Source: Clostridia bacterium (GTDB taxonomy: Bacteria; Bacillota; Clostridia; Christensenellales; Aristaeellaceae). From it: 56,658 nucleotides of DNA. Positions 18,893-32,129 of the stretch are shown here, piece by piece (the first letter of the stretch is position 1; every line of letters starts with the position of its first letter). A program made the translations under genes and the position numbers. The stretch spans positions 1 through 56,658 of the forward strand of contig JAFUZM010000231.1 in assembly GCA_017476605.1 (NCBI GenBank). The letters are read 5' to 3'. The notes under the pieces are model-generated. The model saw only the letters and a list, made by a program, of their open reading frames with translations. It did no database searches and was not told the origin of the DNA.

Positions 18893-18988
18893 AACTGTTT
18901 CTCTGCATTGAACATAAGCAAGACAATTTACCAAACCACGCTCATATGTTTTTATACTCCAGCGCAACAAGAACGGGAAGTGCTACTT

Positions 18989-21900
18989 ATGGAACGATAC
19001 CAGTTCAGTGAAACAGAACTCATGCTTTTGGAGCAGTTGCCCACGCCGATTGCAGTCTATCAGACTGTCGGCAACAAGGTGTATACCCTCGCATTATCGG
19101 ATGGATTCCGGAAGCTGTTTGGATACAATGACAAGGCCGAGGCCTATCGGCTCATGAATCTGGACCCTTGTTACAATACGCATCCGGATGATACAGCGCG
19201 GATTGAAGAAGCCATTCGCAAGTTCTCCACTGAAGGCGGCCAATATGAGGTTATCTTCCGTGCAAAGGACAGCAAAGGGAAGGACTATCGCGTCGTACAC
19301 GGCATCGGAAACCATATCTACAGGGATGGCATGCGCCTGGCCGTTGTGTCGTTTACGGATGAAGGGGCGTATACCTTTGAGGAAGATGCCCGAGCATCAA
19401 CACTCAACAAAGCGTTCAGCCAGGCGCTCCATGAGGAAAGTCTGCTCAAGGCAAACTATTTTGATGACCTGACAGGCCTTCCCAGCATGACCCATTTCTT
19501 CAGTCTGGCTGAGGAGGAGCGGGAAAAGACCCGAAACGAGGGTGGCAATCCTGTAATGCTGTATATGAATTTCAGCGGCATGAAATTCTATAATATGAAA
19601 AATGGATTTGCTGAGGGGAACAATCTTTTGCAAGCCTTTGCAAAAACCCTCTCGGGCATCTTTGGAAGTCACAACTGCTGCCGCATCAGCGCAGATCACT
19701 TTGTTGTGCTGACCGAGGAGCAAGGACTTGTCGAGCGAATTAAACAGCTGATTGAGGAATGCCAGAAGATCAACGGCGGGAATACTCTGCCGGTTCATGT
19801 CGGTGTCTATGTGGCTGAGCCAATGCTGGTACCTGTCAGTGTGGCCTGTGACCGGGCCAAGCTTGCCTGCAGCAAACTCACCGGCCGATATGAGACAGCC
19901 GTGAACTACTACAGTAAGGCGCTCAGCGAGGAGGCATCGAGTAAACAGTATATAATCGAAAACATTGACCGCGCGATCAAAGAGAAGTGGATCAAGGTTT
20001 ATCTCCAGCCGATCATTCGTGCTGTCAACGGGCGAGTGTGCGACGTTGAAGCATTGGCAAGGTGGATTGATCCGGTAAAGGGCATCCTGTCCCCGGCCAG
20101 CTTTATCCCGGTCCTTGAGGAAGCAGGGCTGATTTACAAGCTGGATCTCTATATGGTGGATGAGGTTTTGGAACTGATCAAGGCACAAATGGCCAAGGGC
20201 TTTTTCATAACACCTCATTCCGTCAACCTCTCTCGTTCAGACTTTGATACTTGCGACATTGTCGAGGAAATCCGGCAACGTGTGGATGATGCAGGCATAG
20301 CTCGCGACAGAATCACCATTGAAATCACAGAGAGCATCATCGGCAGCGACTTTGAATTCATGAAAACACAGGTGGAGCGCTTCCAGAAACTCGGTTTTCC
20401 GGTATGGATGGATGACTTCGGCAGTGGGTACTCTTCTCTGGATGTTCTGCAAAGCATTCGGTTTGATCTCTTGAAATTTGACATGAGCTTTATGAACAAG
20501 CTCAATGAAGGCGACAGCGGGAAGATCATTCTGACTGAGCTGATGAAGATGGCCACCTCTCTGGGCATGGATACTGTCTGCGAAGGCGTTGAGACCGAGG
20601 CTCAGGTTCGCTTTCTTCAGGAGATCGGCTGTTCCAAACTCCAGGGGTATTATTACAGCAAACCCTTGTCTTTCGATGCGATTCTGGAAATGTATGAAAA
20701 GGGCATCCTCATTGAAAACGAAAACCCGGAAGAATCTGTATACTACGAGAGTCTCGGCCGGCTTGACCTGTTTGATCTCAGCATGGTTGGCAGTGACGAT
20801 GAAGATGTCTTTGAACATACCTTCAGTTCCATACCCATTGCCGTCCTTGAGGTCAACAACGGGCAGGGACGATATGTACGAAGCAATGGCTCCTATCGGT
20901 ATTTTGCAAAGCGCTTCTTCAATATCGACGTAATGGAACAATGGCTGGATTTTGATGATCCCGAAATCGCTCAATGGGCCACCTTTCTCTCATCGGTTAA
21001 GCAGTGCTGCGTGACAGGTCATCATATTTTCTTTGACGAGAAGGTAACGGACGGCTCGGTTTTCCATTTCTTTGCCAGGCGGGTCAGCATTAATCCTCTC
21101 ACAGGAACCACGGCAGTAGCTATTGCGGTGCTCTCTATCGCTGAGCCGGACGAGGAAAGCATGACTTTCGCGGAAATTGCAAGGTCACTAGCCGCAGACT
21201 ACTACAACATTTACCTGATTGATCTGGATACAAACGACTATATTGAGTATTCCTCACAGGTCGGCAGCGAGGAAATGTTACTGCAGCGTCACGGCGGGGA
21301 TTTCTTTGAATCGGCGAAGCGCGATACGATGGTCCGCATCTATGAGGAGGACAGGGAATCTTTCCTGACACTGTTCACAAAGGAAAATGTCCTTCGGGAC
21401 ATCGATCGTCAGGGCGTCTTCACGACCACGTATCGTCTGGTGGATACAGGAGCGCCGATGTATGTCAATATGAAGATCACACGGATGCACGACGGGAACC
21501 GTCTGATTCTGGGTGTCAGCATCATTGATGCTTATATGAAACAGCAGGAAGAGGAAAAGCGGCTGAAGCAGGAAAAGGTGTCCCTTGGAAGAATTGCCGC
21601 TCTGTCTCCGGATTACATGGTTCTCTACACAGTCGATCCTGTAACCGGCCATTATACACAGTACAATCCATCCAACGAATTTGAAGAATTCGGTCTGGCC
21701 AGTCAGGGAGAAGATTTCTTCGCTGACGTTGTATTAGATGCACCGAAGGCGATTTCCCAAGAGGACATGGAGCGCCATTTGCGCGTCATGACGAAGGAAA
21801 ATATGCTTCGGGACATTCGAAATACCGGTTCCTTCATCCACCACTATCGAATGCTCATTGATGGAAAGACTGTCCCGGCAAGTCTCAGAGCAACGCTGAT

Positions 21901-23311
21901 CCAGGAAAGCGACGGGGAAAAGATCATTCTTGGCGTCACCAATGACGCAGAGGAATACCGGCGTAAGCTGGAGGCAGCCTATAAAGAGGCAAGCAGCAAT
22001 GCGACCATCTACAATCACATTGCACACGCATTGGCCCGGGACTGCACGGATCTGTTCTATGTCAATACAGAAACCAATGAGCTCATCGAATTCAACACCG
22101 ATGATGCAAGCGGTGTTCTAAGCGAAGCGCGGCGGGGCATGGACTTCTTTGAGGGATGCGAACGGGATGCCAGGCTTTTCATCCACCCGGATGACCAGGA
22201 TGCGTTCATCCGGGCGATGAACCGCGATTTCCTCTCGAAAGCGCTGGATCACTCAAAGGTATTCGAAATGACCTATCGCAGAATCAAGGAGGGAAGAACC
22301 TTCTTTGTCGACATGAAGGTGTCCCGAATGGAGGATGATCCTCGCATCATCGTCATTGCTGTATCGGATATTGACGAGCTGATGAAGCAGCGTCGCCTGG
22401 AGGAGAGGATTAAAGAGGAGCGTATCGTCTATGCCCGGCTTCATGCCATCACGGGTAACTTTATCGTCGTCTACGTAGTGGATCCTGTGAGCAATCACTA
22501 CCGGGAATTCAGCGCTACCCTTGGCTATGCGAAATCCTTTGGCACAGCAAAAGAAGGACTGGATTTCTTTGAATCGGTGCGCAGGGATGCCAAGGTTTAC
22601 GCTCATCCGAAAGATCTGGATCGCTTTCTTGCAGCATTCAGCAAGGAGAGCATCCTTGAGGAGATCAGGCGAAGCGGCATATTCACCTGGGGATACCGCA
22701 TCATGATGGGAGATAAACCCATTCATGTCCAGATGAAAGCCACCATGGTGGAGGAGAAGGAAGGCCCACGCCTGATCGTCGGTCTCGATGACATTGACGC
22801 ACAGGTTCGGCAGGAAGAAGAATATTCAAGGCGTCTCGCAAAAGCACAGTCCGAGGCGAACATAGATGGACTGACAGGAATCAAAAACAGGCATGCCTAC
22901 CTGGAGACAGTGGTGCAAATCGACCAGAAGATCGAAGATCATGAGCAGCCGCCATTTGCCGTTGTGATTCTGGATGTGAATGACCTGAAGAAGATCAATG
23001 ATACAAAAGGGCATCAGGCTGGAGATCAATATCTGAGAGATGCCTGCAAGGTCATCTGCTCCATTTTCAAGCACAGTCCTGTTTTCCGCGTGGGCGGAGA
23101 TGAGTTTGCAGTGATTTCGCAGGAAAGAGATTACGAGAATATTGACTCGCTTGTGGAGAAGGTGCGTGCACACAATATGGAAGCGCTCCATTCCGAGGGG
23201 ATCGTCATTGCCTGTGGCATGGCCAGATTCGAAAATGGCGAAAATGTTGCTGCAGTCGTTGCCCGGGCTGACCATAACATGTACGAGAATAAAGCTTTCC
23301 TGAAGCGATAG
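18989..23311 (+). CDS. Large EAL-GGDEF protein with four tandem PAS-like repeats
   Basis: A 1440-residue soluble c-di-GMP protein. Order: N-terminal PAS-like (about 10-120); degenerate GGDEF (DDLTGLPS near 158, SADHF in place of GGDEF near 234); intact EAL (VEALARW near 353, ITIEITESI, WMDDFGSGYSSLDVL near 475, QGYYYSKPL); a divergent PAS-like stretch; four tandem related modules of about 120 residues (about 739-857, 871-990, 1014-1134, 1150-1274), each with a D-F-F-[EA] motif, a TKENxLRDI-like helix and a TYR...M-K strand; and a C-terminal GGDEF with an intact RVGGDEFAVIS. Both activities look possible; no inhibitory RxxD precedes the GGDEF. I chose ATG 18989 (GGGAAG upstream) over the TTG at 18908. 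Confidence 0.9.
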   Translation: MERYQFSETELMLLEQLPTPIAVYQTVGNKVYTLALSDGFRKLFGYNDKAEAYRLMNLDPCYNTHPDDTARIEEAIRKFSTEGGQYEVIFRAKDSKGKDYRVVHGIGNHIYRDGMRLAVVSFTDEGAYTFEEDARASTLNKAFSQALHEESLLKANYFDDLTGLPSMTHFFSLAEEEREKTRNEGGNPVMLYMNFSGMKFYNMKNGFAEGNNLLQAFAKTLSGIFGSHNCCRISADHFVVLTEEQGLVERIKQLIEECQKINGGNTLPVHVGVYVAEPMLVPVSVACDRAKLACSKLTGRYETAVNYYSKALSEEASSKQYIIENIDRAIKEKWIKVYLQPIIRAVNGRVCDVEALARWIDPVKGILSPASFIPVLEEAGLIYKLDLYMVDEVLELIKAQMAKGFFITPHSVNLSRSDFDTCDIVEEIRQRVDDAGIARDRITIEITESIIGSDFEFMKTQVERFQKLGFPVWMDDFGSGYSSLDVLQSIRFDLLKFDMSFMNKLNEGDSGKIILTELMKMATSLGMDTVCEGVETEAQVRFLQEIGCSKLQGYYYSKPLSFDAILEMYEKGILIENENPEESVYYESLGRLDLFDLSMVGSDDEDVFEHTFSSIPIAVLEVNNGQGRYVRSNGSYRYFAKRFFNIDVMEQWLDFDDPEIAQWATFLSSVKQCCVTGHHIFFDEKVTDGSVFHFFARRVSINPLTGTTAVAIAVLSIAEPDEESMTFAEIARSLAADYYNIYLIDLDTNDYIEYSSQVGSEEMLLQRHGGDFFESAKRDTMVRIYEEDRESFLTLFTKENVLRDIDRQGVFTTTYRLVDTGAPMYVNMKITRMHDGNRLILGVSIIDAYMKQQEEEKRLKQEKVSLGRIAALSPDYMVLYTVDPVTGHYTQYNPSNEFEEFGLASQGEDFFADVVLDAPKAISQEDMERHLRVMTKENMLRDIRNTGSFIHHYRMLIDGKTVPASLRATLIQESDGEKIILGVTNDAEEYRRKLEAAYKEASSNATIYNHIAHALARDCTDLFYVNTETNELIEFNTDDASGVLSEARRGMDFFEGCERDARLFIHPDDQDAFIRAMNRDFLSKALDHSKVFEMTYRRIKEGRTFFVDMKVSRMEDDPRIIVIAVSDIDELMKQRRLEERIKEERIVYARLHAITGNFIVVYVVDPVSNHYREFSATLGYAKSFGTAKEGLDFFESVRRDAKVYAHPKDLDRFLAAFSKESILEEIRRSGIFTWGYRIMMGDKPIHVQMKATMVEEKEGPRLIVGLDDIDAQVRQEEEYSRRLAKAQSEANIDGLTGIKNRHAYLETVVQIDQKIEDHEQPPFAVVILDVNDLKKINDTKGHQAGDQYLRDACKVICSIFKHSPVFRVGGDEFAVISQERDYENIDSLVEKVRAHNMEALHSEGIVIACGMARFENGENVAAVVARADHNMYENKAFLKR

Positions 23312-25331: not shown

Positions 25332-27104
25332 ATGAAGCTATGCGTTCATACCCGCGGGGAAAGCAATGCCGGAGGAAAACCAGGAGTTTACCTGGTATGT
25401 CATCCGGAGCAGACTGCCCTGGTCATTCCATTGCTTTCCGAGGACATATTAAGACATGCCAACTGTGCTATCTGGTATGACTCCGAACCGGAGTCGAGTT
25501 ATGACGTTCAGGAGCTTTGGAACGCTCTTAATAAAATACAGCTGTTCGTTGTCGCTGTAACATCGAAGTTCTTATATGCCGACCATAGGGCCAGAAATGT
25601 GGAGCTGAAATACGCCCTTGAACAGCATATTCCTGTTCTTCCGGTTCTCTTCGAATCTGGCCTCGTCCGGGAATTTAACCGAATCACGGATACAATCATC
25701 CGGGGTGTGGATCGCACGGAGAATGATCCAACAGCCACATCATATGAGGATGTGCTGGATTCCTACCTTAAGTCCGTGCTTGTGAGCCATTCACTGGGAT
25801 GGATCGACAAGAAGGAAAATGACGGATCTGCCCGGAACCGCTATTTCATGGGCCTTGCCTATCTTTCGGGAATTGATGCTCAGATCAATCGCTCCAAAGC
25901 GCTTGAACTCCTTGAGAGTGCAGCTGAGGATCCGGAACCTTGCCTTGATGCCACCGAAAAACTGGTGGATATGTATCTTTTTGGCATTGGTGTGTCTCTT
26001 GACATAGAAAAGGCGTTTTTCTGGCAGAAAAAGCTCTGCAAGCAGCTTCAAACGGAATATAAAATAGGGCATTCACCGGATGAGCATCTGGACGTTGGGA
26101 CAAGGTATTTCCATGCGCTGATCAGCCTCTCCGATATTCTGCGGATAGCAGGACAGTTGCCTCAGGCTATTTCTACTGCAAAGCAGGCCCTTCAGGCTGC
26201 TGAGGAGCTTGCATCTGAAGTTGGCAAACAGGAATCTGATCGTAATATCGCGATGGTCTATGACCGTCTGAGCTCCCTTTACTGCGAGATCATGGAATGG
26301 GAGGATGCAAAGAAGTACTCCCGGAATGCCATGGACATCTATGCAAAGCTGGCAGGAGAGCAGGGTACAGTTCGCGCCAGACGGGATCTCTCCGTAAGCC
26401 AGGAGAAGCTGGGGGATATCTATCAAAAATGCAATGAACTTGATCCGGCTGAGGCTCTCTATCGGGATGCACTCTCGATTCGAGAAGCTCTGTCTATGAG
26501 TGACCATAGTCCAAATGTCCGCCGGGACATTTCCGAAATACGGACAAAACTGGGAGACATCCGAAAGGCACAGAATGACTATGATAGCGCAGCGGAGGAA
26601 TACGCGGCAGCACTCCAATTTGATAGTGAACTGGCAAAAGGACTTGGAACCTGGCAGGCCAGAGATGCCTGTGCCGTGAGCCTGGTCAGGCTTGGTGACA
26701 TCCGCAGATACCAGGGAGAATACCATGAGGCAGTGGAGCTTCATCATCGTGCTGCCGTCCTTCTTCAGGAGCTTGTAGACGAAACGGGCTCAATCCAGTA
26801 TCGGAAGAATCTGGCAACAGCACTTGAAAAACTGGCAAAATCCTGGATCGGGTTTTATCAGCCTGAACAGGCTGAACGCTGCTACGAGCGTGCACTTCGT
26901 CTACGTGAGGACCTGGTATACGAACATCCTTCTCACACGTCAAGACACGAACTTGCGACGACCTGTTTTCTGTTTGCAGACCTCAACTGTGACTCGGACA
27001 TGATGAGAAATGCGCTGAGGCTGTGGGAGGAAATGTGTCCATCCCATCCGGAATACCAGATCTATGTCGACAACGCCAGACGGATGCTGGCAAAGTGGCG
27101 TTAA
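25332..27104 (+). CDS. TIR-domain protein with Sel1/TPR repeats
   Basis: A 590-residue soluble protein. The N-terminus (about 15-120) is TIR-like: strand VYLVCHPEQTALVI, AIWYDSEPES, IQLFVVAVTSKFLYA, and NVELKYALEQHIPVLPVL, where the Glu of NVELKYA is placed like the catalytic Glu of NAD-cleaving TIR domains. Residues about 160-225 carry a Sel1-like pair (YLSGIDAQINRSKALELL, MYLFGIGVSLDIEKAFFW). Residues about 250-585 are TPR-type helices (LGDIYQKCNELDPAEALYRDAL and similar every 40-45 residues). It starts at ATG 25332 after CGGAG. The next gene follows after 17 bases. TIR-TPR proteins are known in bacterial conflict and antiphage systems; a defence role here is inferred. Confidence 0.8.
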   Translation: MKLCVHTRGESNAGGKPGVYLVCHPEQTALVIPLLSEDILRHANCAIWYDSEPESSYDVQELWNALNKIQLFVVAVTSKFLYADHRARNVELKYALEQHIPVLPVLFESGLVREFNRITDTIIRGVDRTENDPTATSYEDVLDSYLKSVLVSHSLGWIDKKENDGSARNRYFMGLAYLSGIDAQINRSKALELLESAAEDPEPCLDATEKLVDMYLFGIGVSLDIEKAFFWQKKLCKQLQTEYKIGHSPDEHLDVGTRYFHALISLSDILRIAGQLPQAISTAKQALQAAEELASEVGKQESDRNIAMVYDRLSSLYCEIMEWEDAKKYSRNAMDIYAKLAGEQGTVRARRDLSVSQEKLGDIYQKCNELDPAEALYRDALSIREALSMSDHSPNVRRDISEIRTKLGDIRKAQNDYDSAAEEYAAALQFDSELAKGLGTWQARDACAVSLVRLGDIRRYQGEYHEAVELHHRAAVLLQELVDETGSIQYRKNLATALEKLAKSWIGFYQPEQAERCYERALRLREDLVYEHPSHTSRHELATTCFLFADLNCDSDMMRNALRLWEEMCPSHPEYQIYVDNARRMLAKWR

Positions 27105-28455: not shown

Positions 28456-28838
28456 ATCAAGAAAACACACCGATGAGATTGGAACGCAAACAGTCACCTC
28501 TATACAAAAGCATCCTCCTTCACAAGAAGAGCAGTGTTTGGAAGAGAGACCATAGACAAAGAGACCATAGACGGAAAAAAAGCTACACTCATGGAAATGC
28601 AAGTCGTCCTCCGGAATGTGATTCCAGGGGACGACTTGTTTTGCAAAATGGACTGTCATGTGGATTATCCTGCATTGAAACAGACGCCTGTACACTGGAA
28701 GATGAAATCACGTTTGCCCTGTTCCCCAAAAATCAGGTAGCATCTACGGATTCCCTTATTTTCCGATTTCCTGTATAATATGCAGCAGTCAGGAATGAGC
28801 TGGTCTGCATAGCAGGGAAGAGGCAGGTGAGAAGGGCA
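28456..28838 (+). other. Intergenic gap between the TIR operon and the helicase gene
   Basis: About 380 bases with no convincing gene. It holds a short tandem repeat (AGAGACCATAGACAA then AGAGACCATAGACGG, about 28545-28574), the terminator at 28600, and a TATAAT at 28774-28779 that may be the -10 box for the fusion gene (its -35 is poor). Confidence 0.6.
28600..28642 (+). terminator. Terminator ending the TIR operon
   Basis: CAAGTCGTCC (28600-28609) pairs with GGACGACTTG (28629-28638), followed by TTTT. The 19-base loop is long but the stem is perfect. Confidence 0.65.
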
Positions 28839-31800
28839 ATGATCCGTCTTCAGAAGGTGAACGGCAAAAACATCTGGGATATTCTCAAGTTACATGTCAA
28901 AAAAGAACAGCAGACGTTTGTGGCCTCAAATGAGATCAGCATTATCGAGGCGTACATTGCGCAGAATGAGCATGGTCATGCGTTTCCTTTTGGCATATAT
29001 GACGATGAACTCCCTGTCGGCTTTTGTATGATCGGGTACGGCGTGGATGATTCCTGGGCGGATGCACCCGCTGTCGCCGTGGACAACTATAACGTCTGGC
29101 GCCTGATGATTGACGAGCGGTTCCAGGGGAGAGGATTGGGTAAGGAAGCCCTCAAAGAGATTTTGAAATTCATCCGCACCGATCCCTGCGGTAAAGCCCA
29201 AAAATGCTGGCTGTCGTATCACCCGGAAAATTTGGCTGCCAAAGCACTTTACAGCCAGTTTGGCTTTGTGGAAACCGATGAATTGGATGGGGACGAGGTG
29301 ATCGCCATTCTGAATTTGCAGGAGACGGATACAAAGAGCGCAGACACAGATGACATTTCCGCTTCCGATCAAACGGTTCAACCGGTGACAAAGAAAAGCA
29401 GTTTTGAGGAAAAAGCCCGTTTGTTCGCTCAGTTGTTTCATGGCCGGGAAGATGTATATGCCAAGCGTTGGGAAAATGACAAGGGTAAATCCGGATACGA
29501 GCCTGTTTGCCTGAACGAATGGATCCCTGGCGTCTGTCAGAAGCCATGCAAAAAATGTAAGAATGCGTCTTATGCTCCCTTTAACCAGAATGCGATTCTG
29601 AGACATTTATCCAAACATAACGATTCCGTTTTTGGCATCTATGCGCTTCAGCCGGATGAAACCTGTTGGTTCCTTGCCATCGACCTGGATGAGAGCACAT
29701 GGAGAAAGGATGTTGAAGCACTGCGGGCTGTATGTAGGGAGCATGGTGTTCCATGTGCGGTGGAGAAATCCCGAAGTGGAAACGGCGCGCATCTCTGGTT
29801 CTTTTTCAGCGAACCTGTTCCTGCATCAAAAGCAAGGCGAATGGGATCATCTCTTGTGACTGCTGCCATGAAATCAAATGCACGGCTGTCCTTTGCCTCC
29901 TATGACCGCATGTTTCCTAATCAGGATTCGATGCCAAAAGGCGGATTCGGAAACCTGATCGCCCTTCCTCTTCAGCCAAAAGCAGCACGTTCATGCGGAG
30001 GAAGCCTCTTTATTGATGAGCAGGAAATCGCCTATCCGGATCAATGGAAGTTTCTTTCCTCCATCAAACGGATGTCTCTCTCCGAGGTTGAGGTGGTTAT
30101 AAAGGAAATCGGAGAGTATCCTCTTGGGGAACTGACAACAGAAACGGATGAGGACCAGCCGTGGAAAAAGGCCCCACAGGATTCTTTGCCGGAGGGCGAT
30201 TTGACGACATCCCTTTCCTGCGTGATTGCCGATCGAATCTATATCTCCCTCGATGGTGTATCCAACGCCGTTCAAAACAAGCTCAAGAGAACAGCCGCAT
30301 TCACAAATCCTGAGTTTTATCAAAGACAGGCAAGACGAATGTCGACCTATAATGTTCCGCGGATCATTAGCTGTGCGGAATATGTGGGCAAATATCTGTG
30401 CCTTCCTCGTGGCTGCACCGAGGAAATTGATGCGTTTGCCGCGGAGCATCATCTCACGGTACACTGGCAGGACGAACAGTGCAGTGGAAAGCCAATTGAT
30501 GTTTCTTTCCGCGGGACACTTTATCCGGAACAGGAAACCGCCTTTCATGCACTGGCAGAGTATGACAAAGGGGTTCTCTCTGCCACCACAGCCTTTGGCA
30601 AGACGGTGATCGGGGCAGCACTGATCGGGGAAAAGAAGGTCAATACACTGATACTGGTCAATCGAAAGGCGCTCCTGGACCAATGGAAAGAACGACTTCA
30701 GACGTTCCTTGAGATCCGGGAAGTGCTTCCTGAGCCGGCCAAAAAGCGGGGGAGAAAAAAGCCGCTCTCGATCATCGGAACATTTGAAGGCGGCGTGGAT
30801 ACCCGCAGCGGTATCATTGATATTGCTATGATGCAGTCCGTTGATAAAAAGGACAGCATTCCGGATTGGATCGGCGAGTATGGAATGGTCATTGTGGATG
30901 AATGTCATCATGTGCCGGCAATCAGCTTTGAACATGTATTGAAGGGGATTCGGGCTAAATATACCTTTGGTCTCACGGCAACGCCCAAGCGGAAAGACGG
31001 GCATCACCCGATCATTACCATGTACCTGGGTCCCATTCGTTATCGCGTTGATGCAAAAGAGCAGGCAAAGCAACGTCCCTTTACACATGTCATGATTCCA
31101 AGATTTACAGGGATGACCTTCCCGGATTCCGATGAAAAGGAAAATCGGAATATCGCAGAGTATTACAGCCTGCTGGCTGAGGACGATATCCGCAATGCTA
31201 TGATTGTCGATGACGTATTTGCCTGCCTCGAGGAAAAACGAAACTGTCTCATTTTGAGTGAGCGCGTGAGGCATGTGCAAAAGCTTGCGGAACTGATTGA
31301 GCAAAGGGGAAAAGAAGTGTTCATCCTGGTCGGAGGTCAGTCTGGATCGCAGTCGGATGCACAGCTTAAGCAGCTTCGCGCCGCTCCGCATGATTGTCCC
31401 GTCGTCGTATGTGCAACAGGCAAATACATTGGCGAAGGCTTTGATGAATCGAGGCTGGATACGCTGTTTTTGACCATGCCGATTTCCTGGGAGGGAATTC
31501 TTGCCCAGTATGCCGGAAGACTTCACCGACTGTATGACGGAAAAACGGAAGTTCGGGTATACGACTATATTGATGATCAGGCGGCAATGCTGGAGCGGAT
31601 GTACCATAAACGACTTCGGTCCTATGCGTCTCTTGGATATCGGGTATGTGTGGAGCACAATGATGCCTATCTCAATCGGGATGTGATCTATGATCAGCGG
31701 TCTTTTGCTGATCCGTTCCTGCAGGACATTAAGACAGCGCGTCGTTCTGTTGTCATCGTCAGTCCGTTTATCAAGATCAACCGTTGTCGCTGGCTGCAAA

Positions 31801-32129
31801 ACCAGCTGCGTGAGAATCCGCATCCCCTGAAAGTGACCGTGGTCACACGCCCCTCCGATGCGTTCACGGGAAAGAATTCCGAGGATGTAAAAAAAGCAAT
31901 TCAGTGCTTATCAGACAGTGGAATCGAGGTTGCCGGCAGATATGCGATTCACCAGAAGTTTGCCATTATTGATGATAAAATCGTCTGGTATGGAAGCATC
32001 AATCTTCTGGCATTTGGCTCATCCGAGGAAAGTGTCATTCGAATTGTGACTGGAACTGTGGCGAAAACTCTGTTAAAATCCGTGCTTGACAATGCCTCGG
32101 GGAACAGCAAAGAGAATACCAATGTCTGA
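28839..32129 (+). CDS. GNAT acetyltransferase - primase-like (TOTE AEP) - SF2 helicase - PLD nuclease fusion
   Basis: A 1096-residue multidomain protein. Residues 1-165: GNAT acetyltransferase (VWRLMIDERFQGRGLGKEAL is the acetyl-CoA motif A; ENLAAKALYSQFGF is motif B). About 190-420: archaeo-eukaryotic-primase-like domain of the kind called TOTE AEP, with a Cys knot (CQKPCKKCKNASY), catalytic FLAIDLDEST and SRSGNGAHLWFFF. About 550-960: SF2 helicase (Walker A SATTAFGKT near 579, DECHH near 687, FGLTATPKRK, then YAGRLHRLYDGK in the second RecA domain). About 975-1096: phospholipase-D-like nuclease with one HKD motif (HQKFAIIDDKIVWYGSINLL). ATG 28839 has GAGAAGG in front; GTG 28827 is an alternative. 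AEP-helicase-nuclease proteins are described as conflict systems; the fused acetyltransferase is unusual. Confidence 0.85.
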   Translation: MIRLQKVNGKNIWDILKLHVKKEQQTFVASNEISIIEAYIAQNEHGHAFPFGIYDDELPVGFCMIGYGVDDSWADAPAVAVDNYNVWRLMIDERFQGRGLGKEALKEILKFIRTDPCGKAQKCWLSYHPENLAAKALYSQFGFVETDELDGDEVIAILNLQETDTKSADTDDISASDQTVQPVTKKSSFEEKARLFAQLFHGREDVYAKRWENDKGKSGYEPVCLNEWIPGVCQKPCKKCKNASYAPFNQNAILRHLSKHNDSVFGIYALQPDETCWFLAIDLDESTWRKDVEALRAVCREHGVPCAVEKSRSGNGAHLWFFFSEPVPASKARRMGSSLVTAAMKSNARLSFASYDRMFPNQDSMPKGGFGNLIALPLQPKAARSCGGSLFIDEQEIAYPDQWKFLSSIKRMSLSEVEVVIKEIGEYPLGELTTETDEDQPWKKAPQDSLPEGDLTTSLSCVIADRIYISLDGVSNAVQNKLKRTAAFTNPEFYQRQARRMSTYNVPRIISCAEYVGKYLCLPRGCTEEIDAFAAEHHLTVHWQDEQCSGKPIDVSFRGTLYPEQETAFHALAEYDKGVLSATTAFGKTVIGAALIGEKKVNTLILVNRKALLDQWKERLQTFLEIREVLPEPAKKRGRKKPLSIIGTFEGGVDTRSGIIDIAMMQSVDKKDSIPDWIGEYGMVIVDECHHVPAISFEHVLKGIRAKYTFGLTATPKRKDGHHPIITMYLGPIRYRVDAKEQAKQRPFTHVMIPRFTGMTFPDSDEKENRNIAEYYSLLAEDDIRNAMIVDDVFACLEEKRNCLILSERVRHVQKLAELIEQRGKEVFILVGGQSGSQSDAQLKQLRAAPHDCPVVVCATGKYIGEGFDESRLDTLFLTMPISWEGILAQYAGRLHRLYDGKTEVRVYDYIDDQAAMLERMYHKRLRSYASLGYRVCVEHNDAYLNRDVIYDQRSFADPFLQDIKTARRSVVIVSPFIKINRCRWLQNQLRENPHPLKVTVVTRPSDAFTGKNSEDVKKAIQCLSDSGIEVAGRYAIHQKFAIIDDKIVWYGSINLLAFGSSEESVIRIVTGTVAKTLLKSVLDNASGNSKENTNV

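Follow-up and report, generated by a model that had tools for sequence, protein, structure and literature searches.

In the 56,658-nucleotide stretch of Clostridia bacterium DNA analyzed here (the window), one gene encodes a protein of 1096 amino acids (aa) in which a GNAT acetyltransferase is linked, within a single chain, to a core of the DNA-cutting, defence type, composed of an AEP primase-like domain, an SF2 helicase and a PLD-type nuclease. The same fusion recurs in two further genomes of the genus, the GNAT part is under purifying selection in one measurable pair, and in related proteins the position in front of the core also accepts NUDIX and RNase III-like modules. These other front modules suggest a modular DNA-attacking defence protein, in which selection keeps the added enzyme functional. 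We tentatively favor the view that the gene encodes a defence effector that targets DNA as a single protein and whose front module is exchangeable; in it, the GNAT would serve for pairing and as an auxiliary effector or control enzyme.

Domain architecture of the fused protein

The initial annotation had placed a GNAT domain before primase-like, helicase and PLD domains in the same frame, and this order was confirmed by the open reading frame and by Pfam, with intact motifs throughout. The parts of the gene are as follows.

28839..32129, + strand: whole gene, GNAT - linker - AEP - SF2 helicase - PLD, 1096 aa (open reading frame, Pfam, motifs); also fused in genomes G003 and G014
28839..29324, + strand: GNAT acetyltransferase domain, residues 1-162 (Acetyltransf_1, PF00583, residues 40-143, 43.1 bits against a cut-off of 20.7; structures 2fl4 and 9dsb, E 1.7e-10)
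29325..29399, + strand: linker, residues 163-187 (25 residues), poorly conserved, 20% identity to G003
29409..30092, + strand: AEP-TOTE primase-like domain, residues 191-418 (PF22548, E 1.8e-90, 303 bits against a cut-off of 27; structure 7nqd, E 3.9e-11)
30489..31640, + strand: SF2 helicase, residues ~551-934 (PF04851, ResIII, residues 561-718, 75.8 bits against a cut-off of 22.5; PF00270; PF00271, Helicase_C, narrowly under its cut-off, 22.2 against 23.5 bits)
31719..32069, + strand: PLD-type nuclease domain with a single HKD motif, residues 961-1077 (PLDc_2, PF13091, 36.6 bits against a cut-off of 27)

The open reading frame on the + strand has possible starts at 28827 (GTG) and 28839 (ATG) and runs to 32129 without internal stops. 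A Shine-Dalgarno-like stretch, GAGAAGGGCA, containing the ribosome-site-like GAGAAGG, lies just 5' of the ATG at 28839, and for the in-frame start codons near the linker (GTG at 29385 and others) the start scan gave no clear ribosome site upstream. The Pfam match of the GNAT domain is accompanied by the acetyl-CoA loop QGRGLGK and by a tyrosine in ALYSQFGF. The AEP domain contains hDhD (AIDLD), SGNGAH and SYDR, together with a conserved cysteine cluster (C224, C233, C237 and C240), and the helicase part, for which XPB/Rad25-like chains of the PDB and UvsW are similar structures, contains AFGKT, DECHH, TATP and QYAGRLHR. The PLD motif HxK(x)4D is present once, as HQKFAIID at residues 1038-1045. 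The names and roles of these motifs, including that of the catalytic-type tyrosine, are those that we presume for the respective families. As the initial annotation had judged, the AEP metal site and the helicase motifs are intact, and their residues are mostly invariant or near-invariant in a 13-row alignment, in which the PLD motif is less conserved.

Recurrence of the fusion and replacement of the front module

GNAT and AEP were found in one frame in three of the 29 genus genomes searched, namely that of the window, G003 (contig C92; 67% identity over residues 1-1085, frame of 1181 aa) and G014 (contig C480; 64% identity over residues 1-418, frame cut by the contig end), and identity to the window over residues 1-418 is 64-69% among the fused genomes. 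An assembly artefact, a missing stop or start between GNAT and AEP as considered in the initial annotation, was rejected, because the fusion is present in the two other genomes as well, where the linker has diverged. In G003 and G014, the fused gene comes after a VanW-like gene (identified by eye), of which the genome of the window has only distant homologues, so the fused gene occupies at least two chromosomal sites. When nine other genus members were searched for the VanW-like gene, eight loci extended 1.5 kb past it, and none of the longest frames in that stretch was the fused gene. In plasmids, none of 339 matching records aligned 80% of the GNAT-AEP query in one place, and the fusion was found in none of 2639 phages. 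For viral contigs, one search confirmed no fusion and another gave 17 loci, with a GNAT in none of the 14 AEP frames read; the two plasmid AEP frames read alongside them also had none.

Selection was estimated from the ratio of nonsynonymous to synonymous substitution rates (dN/dS) in the G003-G014 pair, since most pairs with the window were saturated at synonymous sites. In this pair, dN/dS was 0.15 for the GNAT, 0.18 for the AEP domain and 0.80 for the linker, the last from only 29 codons with an unsure alignment; the window-G003 pair gave 0.13 for the GNAT at a saturated dS of 1.67. Thus, the GNAT is kept as strictly as the AEP domain while the linker drifts, and both halves are maintained. 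Similar constraint on GNAT and AEP in one chain would also be expected if the GNAT acetylated its own chain or a host protein and thereby held the nuclease off until infection. However, relatives without a GNAT manage without such control, and the nearest GNATs that stand alone are maintained in genomes lacking the core, which makes this explanation improbable in our view.

The front position was inspected in 95 AEP frames (79 distinct frames with an AEP start from stored genomes and 16 from viral contigs and plasmids). The GNAT front is rare (3 of 95), and the commonest front, as judged by eye, is a short coiled-coil-like stretch. A smaller set has a DUF1653 front (L124, E 4.6e-26; L132, E 2.6e-5; L162, by eye), and another minority has a small domain that no Pfam family matches convincingly. 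In genome G204, a NUDIX domain (PF00293, E 1.1e-12) with a NUDIX box intact by eye is fused before AEP-helicase-PLD (L115:5680-8994, contig C1), and an AlbA_2/HATPase_c_4 gene follows. In G390, the same position is occupied by an RNase III-like domain (PF14622, E 4.6e-13; L125:949-4146, contig C208), which in an alignment is without two conserved acidic positions of 1o0w. We take these residues to be catalytic, and their loss is consistent with a domain retained for its fold and not for catalysis. A separate candidate, NUDIX beside GNAT as a recurrent pair, was dropped, with the box pattern present at 3 of 54 GNAT loci.

In a quick tree of 59 cores, the three GNAT forms fall together with a Shimodaira-Hasegawa-like approximate likelihood ratio (SH-aLRT) support of 94, which is below the starred level, and adjoin a pair made up of the NUDIX form of G204 and a coiled-coil form of G294. 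These five rows form one clade (100, starred) nested in coiled-coil-fronted rows, and the GNAT, NUDIX and coiled-coil forms within it share a core identity of about 68%. Rows with a core of less than 560 aa were dropped, L010 being kept with 43% of columns filled, and coiled coil was the default label for rows in which no other domain was seen by eye. The nesting indicates that the coiled-coil-like front was replaced by GNAT and NUDIX in a narrow group, and at the junctions of the fused forms this front is absent. The front thus looks like a swappable slot.

The favored mechanism and the GNAT subfamily

On the reading that we favor, we infer a defence role for the protein, a dimerizing role for the GNAT and acetylation as a co-effector activity. 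The AEP domain with its cysteine cluster would bind nucleic acid or nucleotides, the SF2 motor of XPB/restriction type would translocate, and the PLD nuclease would cut invading DNA as a dimer, because it has one HKD motif and single-HKD PLD enzymes such as BfiI need two copies. The coiled-coil-like front of most relatives is probably an oligomerizer. In the GNAT clade it would have given way to the GNAT, which may take over pairing, since GNATs are commonly dimers. The GNAT is predicted to stay an active acetyltransferase and may act on some amine or protein as an auxiliary effector or control enzyme. The initial annotation had suggested that acetylation might control the nuclease, protect self or modify a protein of an invader. 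A broader generalization is possible, though rather unlikely: AEP-helicase-PLD proteins would be a modular family of single-chain defence proteins, whose N-terminal slot swaps an oligomerizing coiled coil for GNAT, NUDIX or RNase III-like enzymes, each coupled to the DNA-cutting core and serving as a co-effector or control unit. Were such a co-effector role for the slot correct, the closely related natural forms with GNAT, NUDIX or coiled-coil fronts (core identity about 68%) would be a ready set for asking what front enzymes add.

Relatives of the GNAT occur at E<=1e-15 in 132 of 308 genomes of the family. The subfamily is habitually the N-terminal half of bifunctional proteins with GNAT-GNAT, GNAT-AadA-like, GNAT-AadA-GNAT or GNAT-AAC-like order (L002, L013, L015, L016, L020, L069, L076, L078-L080, L082-L085, L089, L090, L092 and L096; the first three called by Pfam, the remainder by eye). 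L002, on contig C157 of the window's own genome, is a GNAT-GNAT protein whose first domain is 66% identical to the GNAT of the window.

Several observations weigh against the favored reading. First, more than 60 residues follow the GNAT domain in 17 of 49 distinct subfamily rows (not counting rows that had an identical middle or fewer than 130 aligned residues), and these are fusions to unrelated proteins; the extensions inspected are second GNATs, AadA-like nucleotidyltransferases and AAC-like GNATs. This tendency to fuse is our main argument against a special bond between the GNAT and the AEP core; it weakens the case for an obligate link, and the fused halves need not belong to one pathway. 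Second, the lone GNATs closest to the fused ones are in genomes G220, G227 and G315, for which the family search gave no core match, and the two pairs for which dN/dS of lone GNATs was computed gave 0.12 and 0.11, so that the GNAT may serve a separate function. Third, heptad order was above that of shuffled sequences at p<=0.05 in 18 of the 45 tree rows labeled as coiled coil, while the other 27 failed this threshold or, in three cases, were too short for the test. In addition, the NUDIX and RNase III-like fronts are known from one genome each, the dimer argument draws on general properties of these folds, and the window gene lies among housekeeping genes (gyrB, gyrA and phosphonate transport) with no recognizable defence island.

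The first two of these points favor an opportunistic fusion, in which a fusion-prone small-molecule acetyltransferase (polyamine- or aminoglycoside-like) was joined by chance to the defence core and both halves act independently. The closest solved structures, named spermine/spermidine acetyltransferases, fit this explanation as well. However, the coiled-coil-like front missing at the junctions indicates that it was replaced rather than extended, the fusion persists in three diverged genomes, and the same slot holds NUDIX and RNase III-like domains. We regard a chance fusion as doubtful, yet as a possibility to be taken seriously.

One clade of the GNAT tree (97/97) unites the three fused GNATs and the three lone ones of G220, G227 and G315. 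At the G227 locus, the C-terminal AITKNSSPEKNNVI of the lone GNAT is similar to the beginning of the AEP part (VTKKSSFEEK in the window), and after this GNAT comes an AlbA_2 gene remnant that is 68% identical to the AlbA_2 gene after the NUDIX form of G204. In G220, the lone GNAT continues into a partly repetitive stretch of 48 bases with 83% identity to the end of this remnant. No AEP sequence was found remaining at these two loci, and G315 gave no trace of an AEP-like end or an AlbA_2 remnant. From these sequence traces, G220 and G227 are read as loci that probably lost the core. On a second reading, the lone GNATs would be the source and the fusion may have arisen twice: the fused rows need two changes in the GNAT tree, and one change suffices in only 6% of bootstrap trees. 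At the G220 and G227 loci (L121 and L122), a short repeat around ATGAGCCGATT was also seen, both within and after the AlbA_2 remnant.

Genomic surroundings and known systems

The window gene is flanked by small unknown proteins and a leucine-rich repeat protein; farther off are gyrB, gyrA, a phosphonate-type ABC binding protein and signalling proteins (20 window proteins scanned). One protein of the window (18908-23308, 1467 aa) has PAS, EAL and GGDEF domains, and another (25332-27101) is a TPR/Sel1 protein with an N-terminus that is TIR-like by eye, for which Pfam gave the repeats only. Related genes were examined at 16 loci, with L118 (G003, GNAT form) and L115 (G204, NUDIX form) among them; 123 neighbor proteins were called there and the 83 of about 130 aa or more were scanned. 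Close to the NUDIX-fronted gene in G204, a phage-type integrase stretch was noted by eye. Strong PADLOC matches were found in neighbors at at least seven of the 16 loci, a lower bound that comes from 10 proteins picked after viewing the family lists (the best 25 of 108 and the best 25 of 257) and stands without a background rate. These neighbors are as follows.

L034: type II REase (restriction enzyme), strong PADLOC match
L036: type I MTase (methyltransferase), strong PADLOC match
L038: DpdE/ZorD-type SNF2 helicase, strong PADLOC match
L041: JetC/JetD, strong PADLOC match
L044: PDC-S01, strong PADLOC match
L116: DarG, strong PADLOC match; locus of the closest coiled-coil relative, G294
L117: DpdF, strong PADLOC match

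The initial annotation had also proposed that separate GNAT neighbors of AEP-helicase genes would support a functional link. Among the families listed (the best 25 of 108), GNAT families account for 3 of the 83 scanned neighbors at the 16 loci, two of them at L036:2588-3004 and L124:7820-8278, and this gives no support; GNATs are generally common, and the 3 of 83 has no background rate beside it.

The surroundings also bear on whether the protein serves DNA repair or replication of a mobile element instead of defence. AEP domains of mobile elements serve replication according to the accessible text of PMC5862659, and the helicase of the core resembles XPB/Rad25 and UvsW. Relatives of the core occur in plasmids and viral contigs; both plasmid relatives inspected lie beside site-specific recombinases. 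Nevertheless, the motor carries a fused PLD nuclease, and the defence-type genes listed above, restriction genes among them, adjoin the related genes at seven or more of the 16 loci, which leaves this role unlikely.

Among known systems, TOTE systems, described as TPR, OB, TBP and Effector in the accessible part of PMC12458937, are matched in the AEP domain (PF22548, 303 against 27 bits). The difference is in the GNAT front and in TBP (PF00352), of which none was found in the window's own genome (92.9% complete), while the control matched 4 of the 14 named genomes, every one an archaeon. A TPR protein is present at 25332-27101, and no OB or cold-shock domain was found among the 20 window proteins scanned, other window proteins being outside the scan. 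Membership in a TOTE system was rejected on these grounds: of the TOTE-type match claimed initially, the AEP domain stood and the system did not, and no TOTE core accompanies the TOTE-type AEP domain of the gene. Overall, the initial interpretation was partly supported.

The CRISPR-associated primase-polymerase 7nqd is the closest solved AEP by sequence. The window protein falls under the curated NF040561 cut-off (102 against 200 bits) and differs in the helicase and PLD that follow the AEP domain; general scans of the 20 window proteins gave no Cas family, and no CRISPR repeat search was made. The closest solved GNATs are the spermine/spermidine acetyltransferase-like 2fl4 and 9dsb, with PaiA 1tiq also near. 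The window GNAT is far under the PaiA-type cut-off of NF053587 (22.8 against 250 bits) and, compared with the spermine/spermidine-like GNATs, has an extra Asp-rich stretch before the acetyl-CoA loop in the alignment.

AEP-helicase-PLD proteins in named records of Bacillota, Thermodesulfobacteriota, Bacteroidota and WOR-1 have the same core as the window protein at about 36-68% identity, but in front of it they mostly have a small domain or a short coiled-coil-like stretch instead of a GNAT. Plasmids carry the AEP-helicase part annotated as DEAD/DEAH box helicase. In the literature available to us, which covered few subscription papers, no description of the AEP-helicase-PLD core or of its GNAT fusion was found. 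A published parallel, in line with the favored reading, is DndF, which is another protein, has a GNAT of the DUF4338 type, and is likened here by description and not by sequence. As far as the accessible text of PMC10853773 goes, its N-terminal domains are variable, include a GNAT and are interpreted as co-effectors, and DndF thus resembles the window protein as a defence motor protein with an exchanged front domain for which a GNAT is an option.

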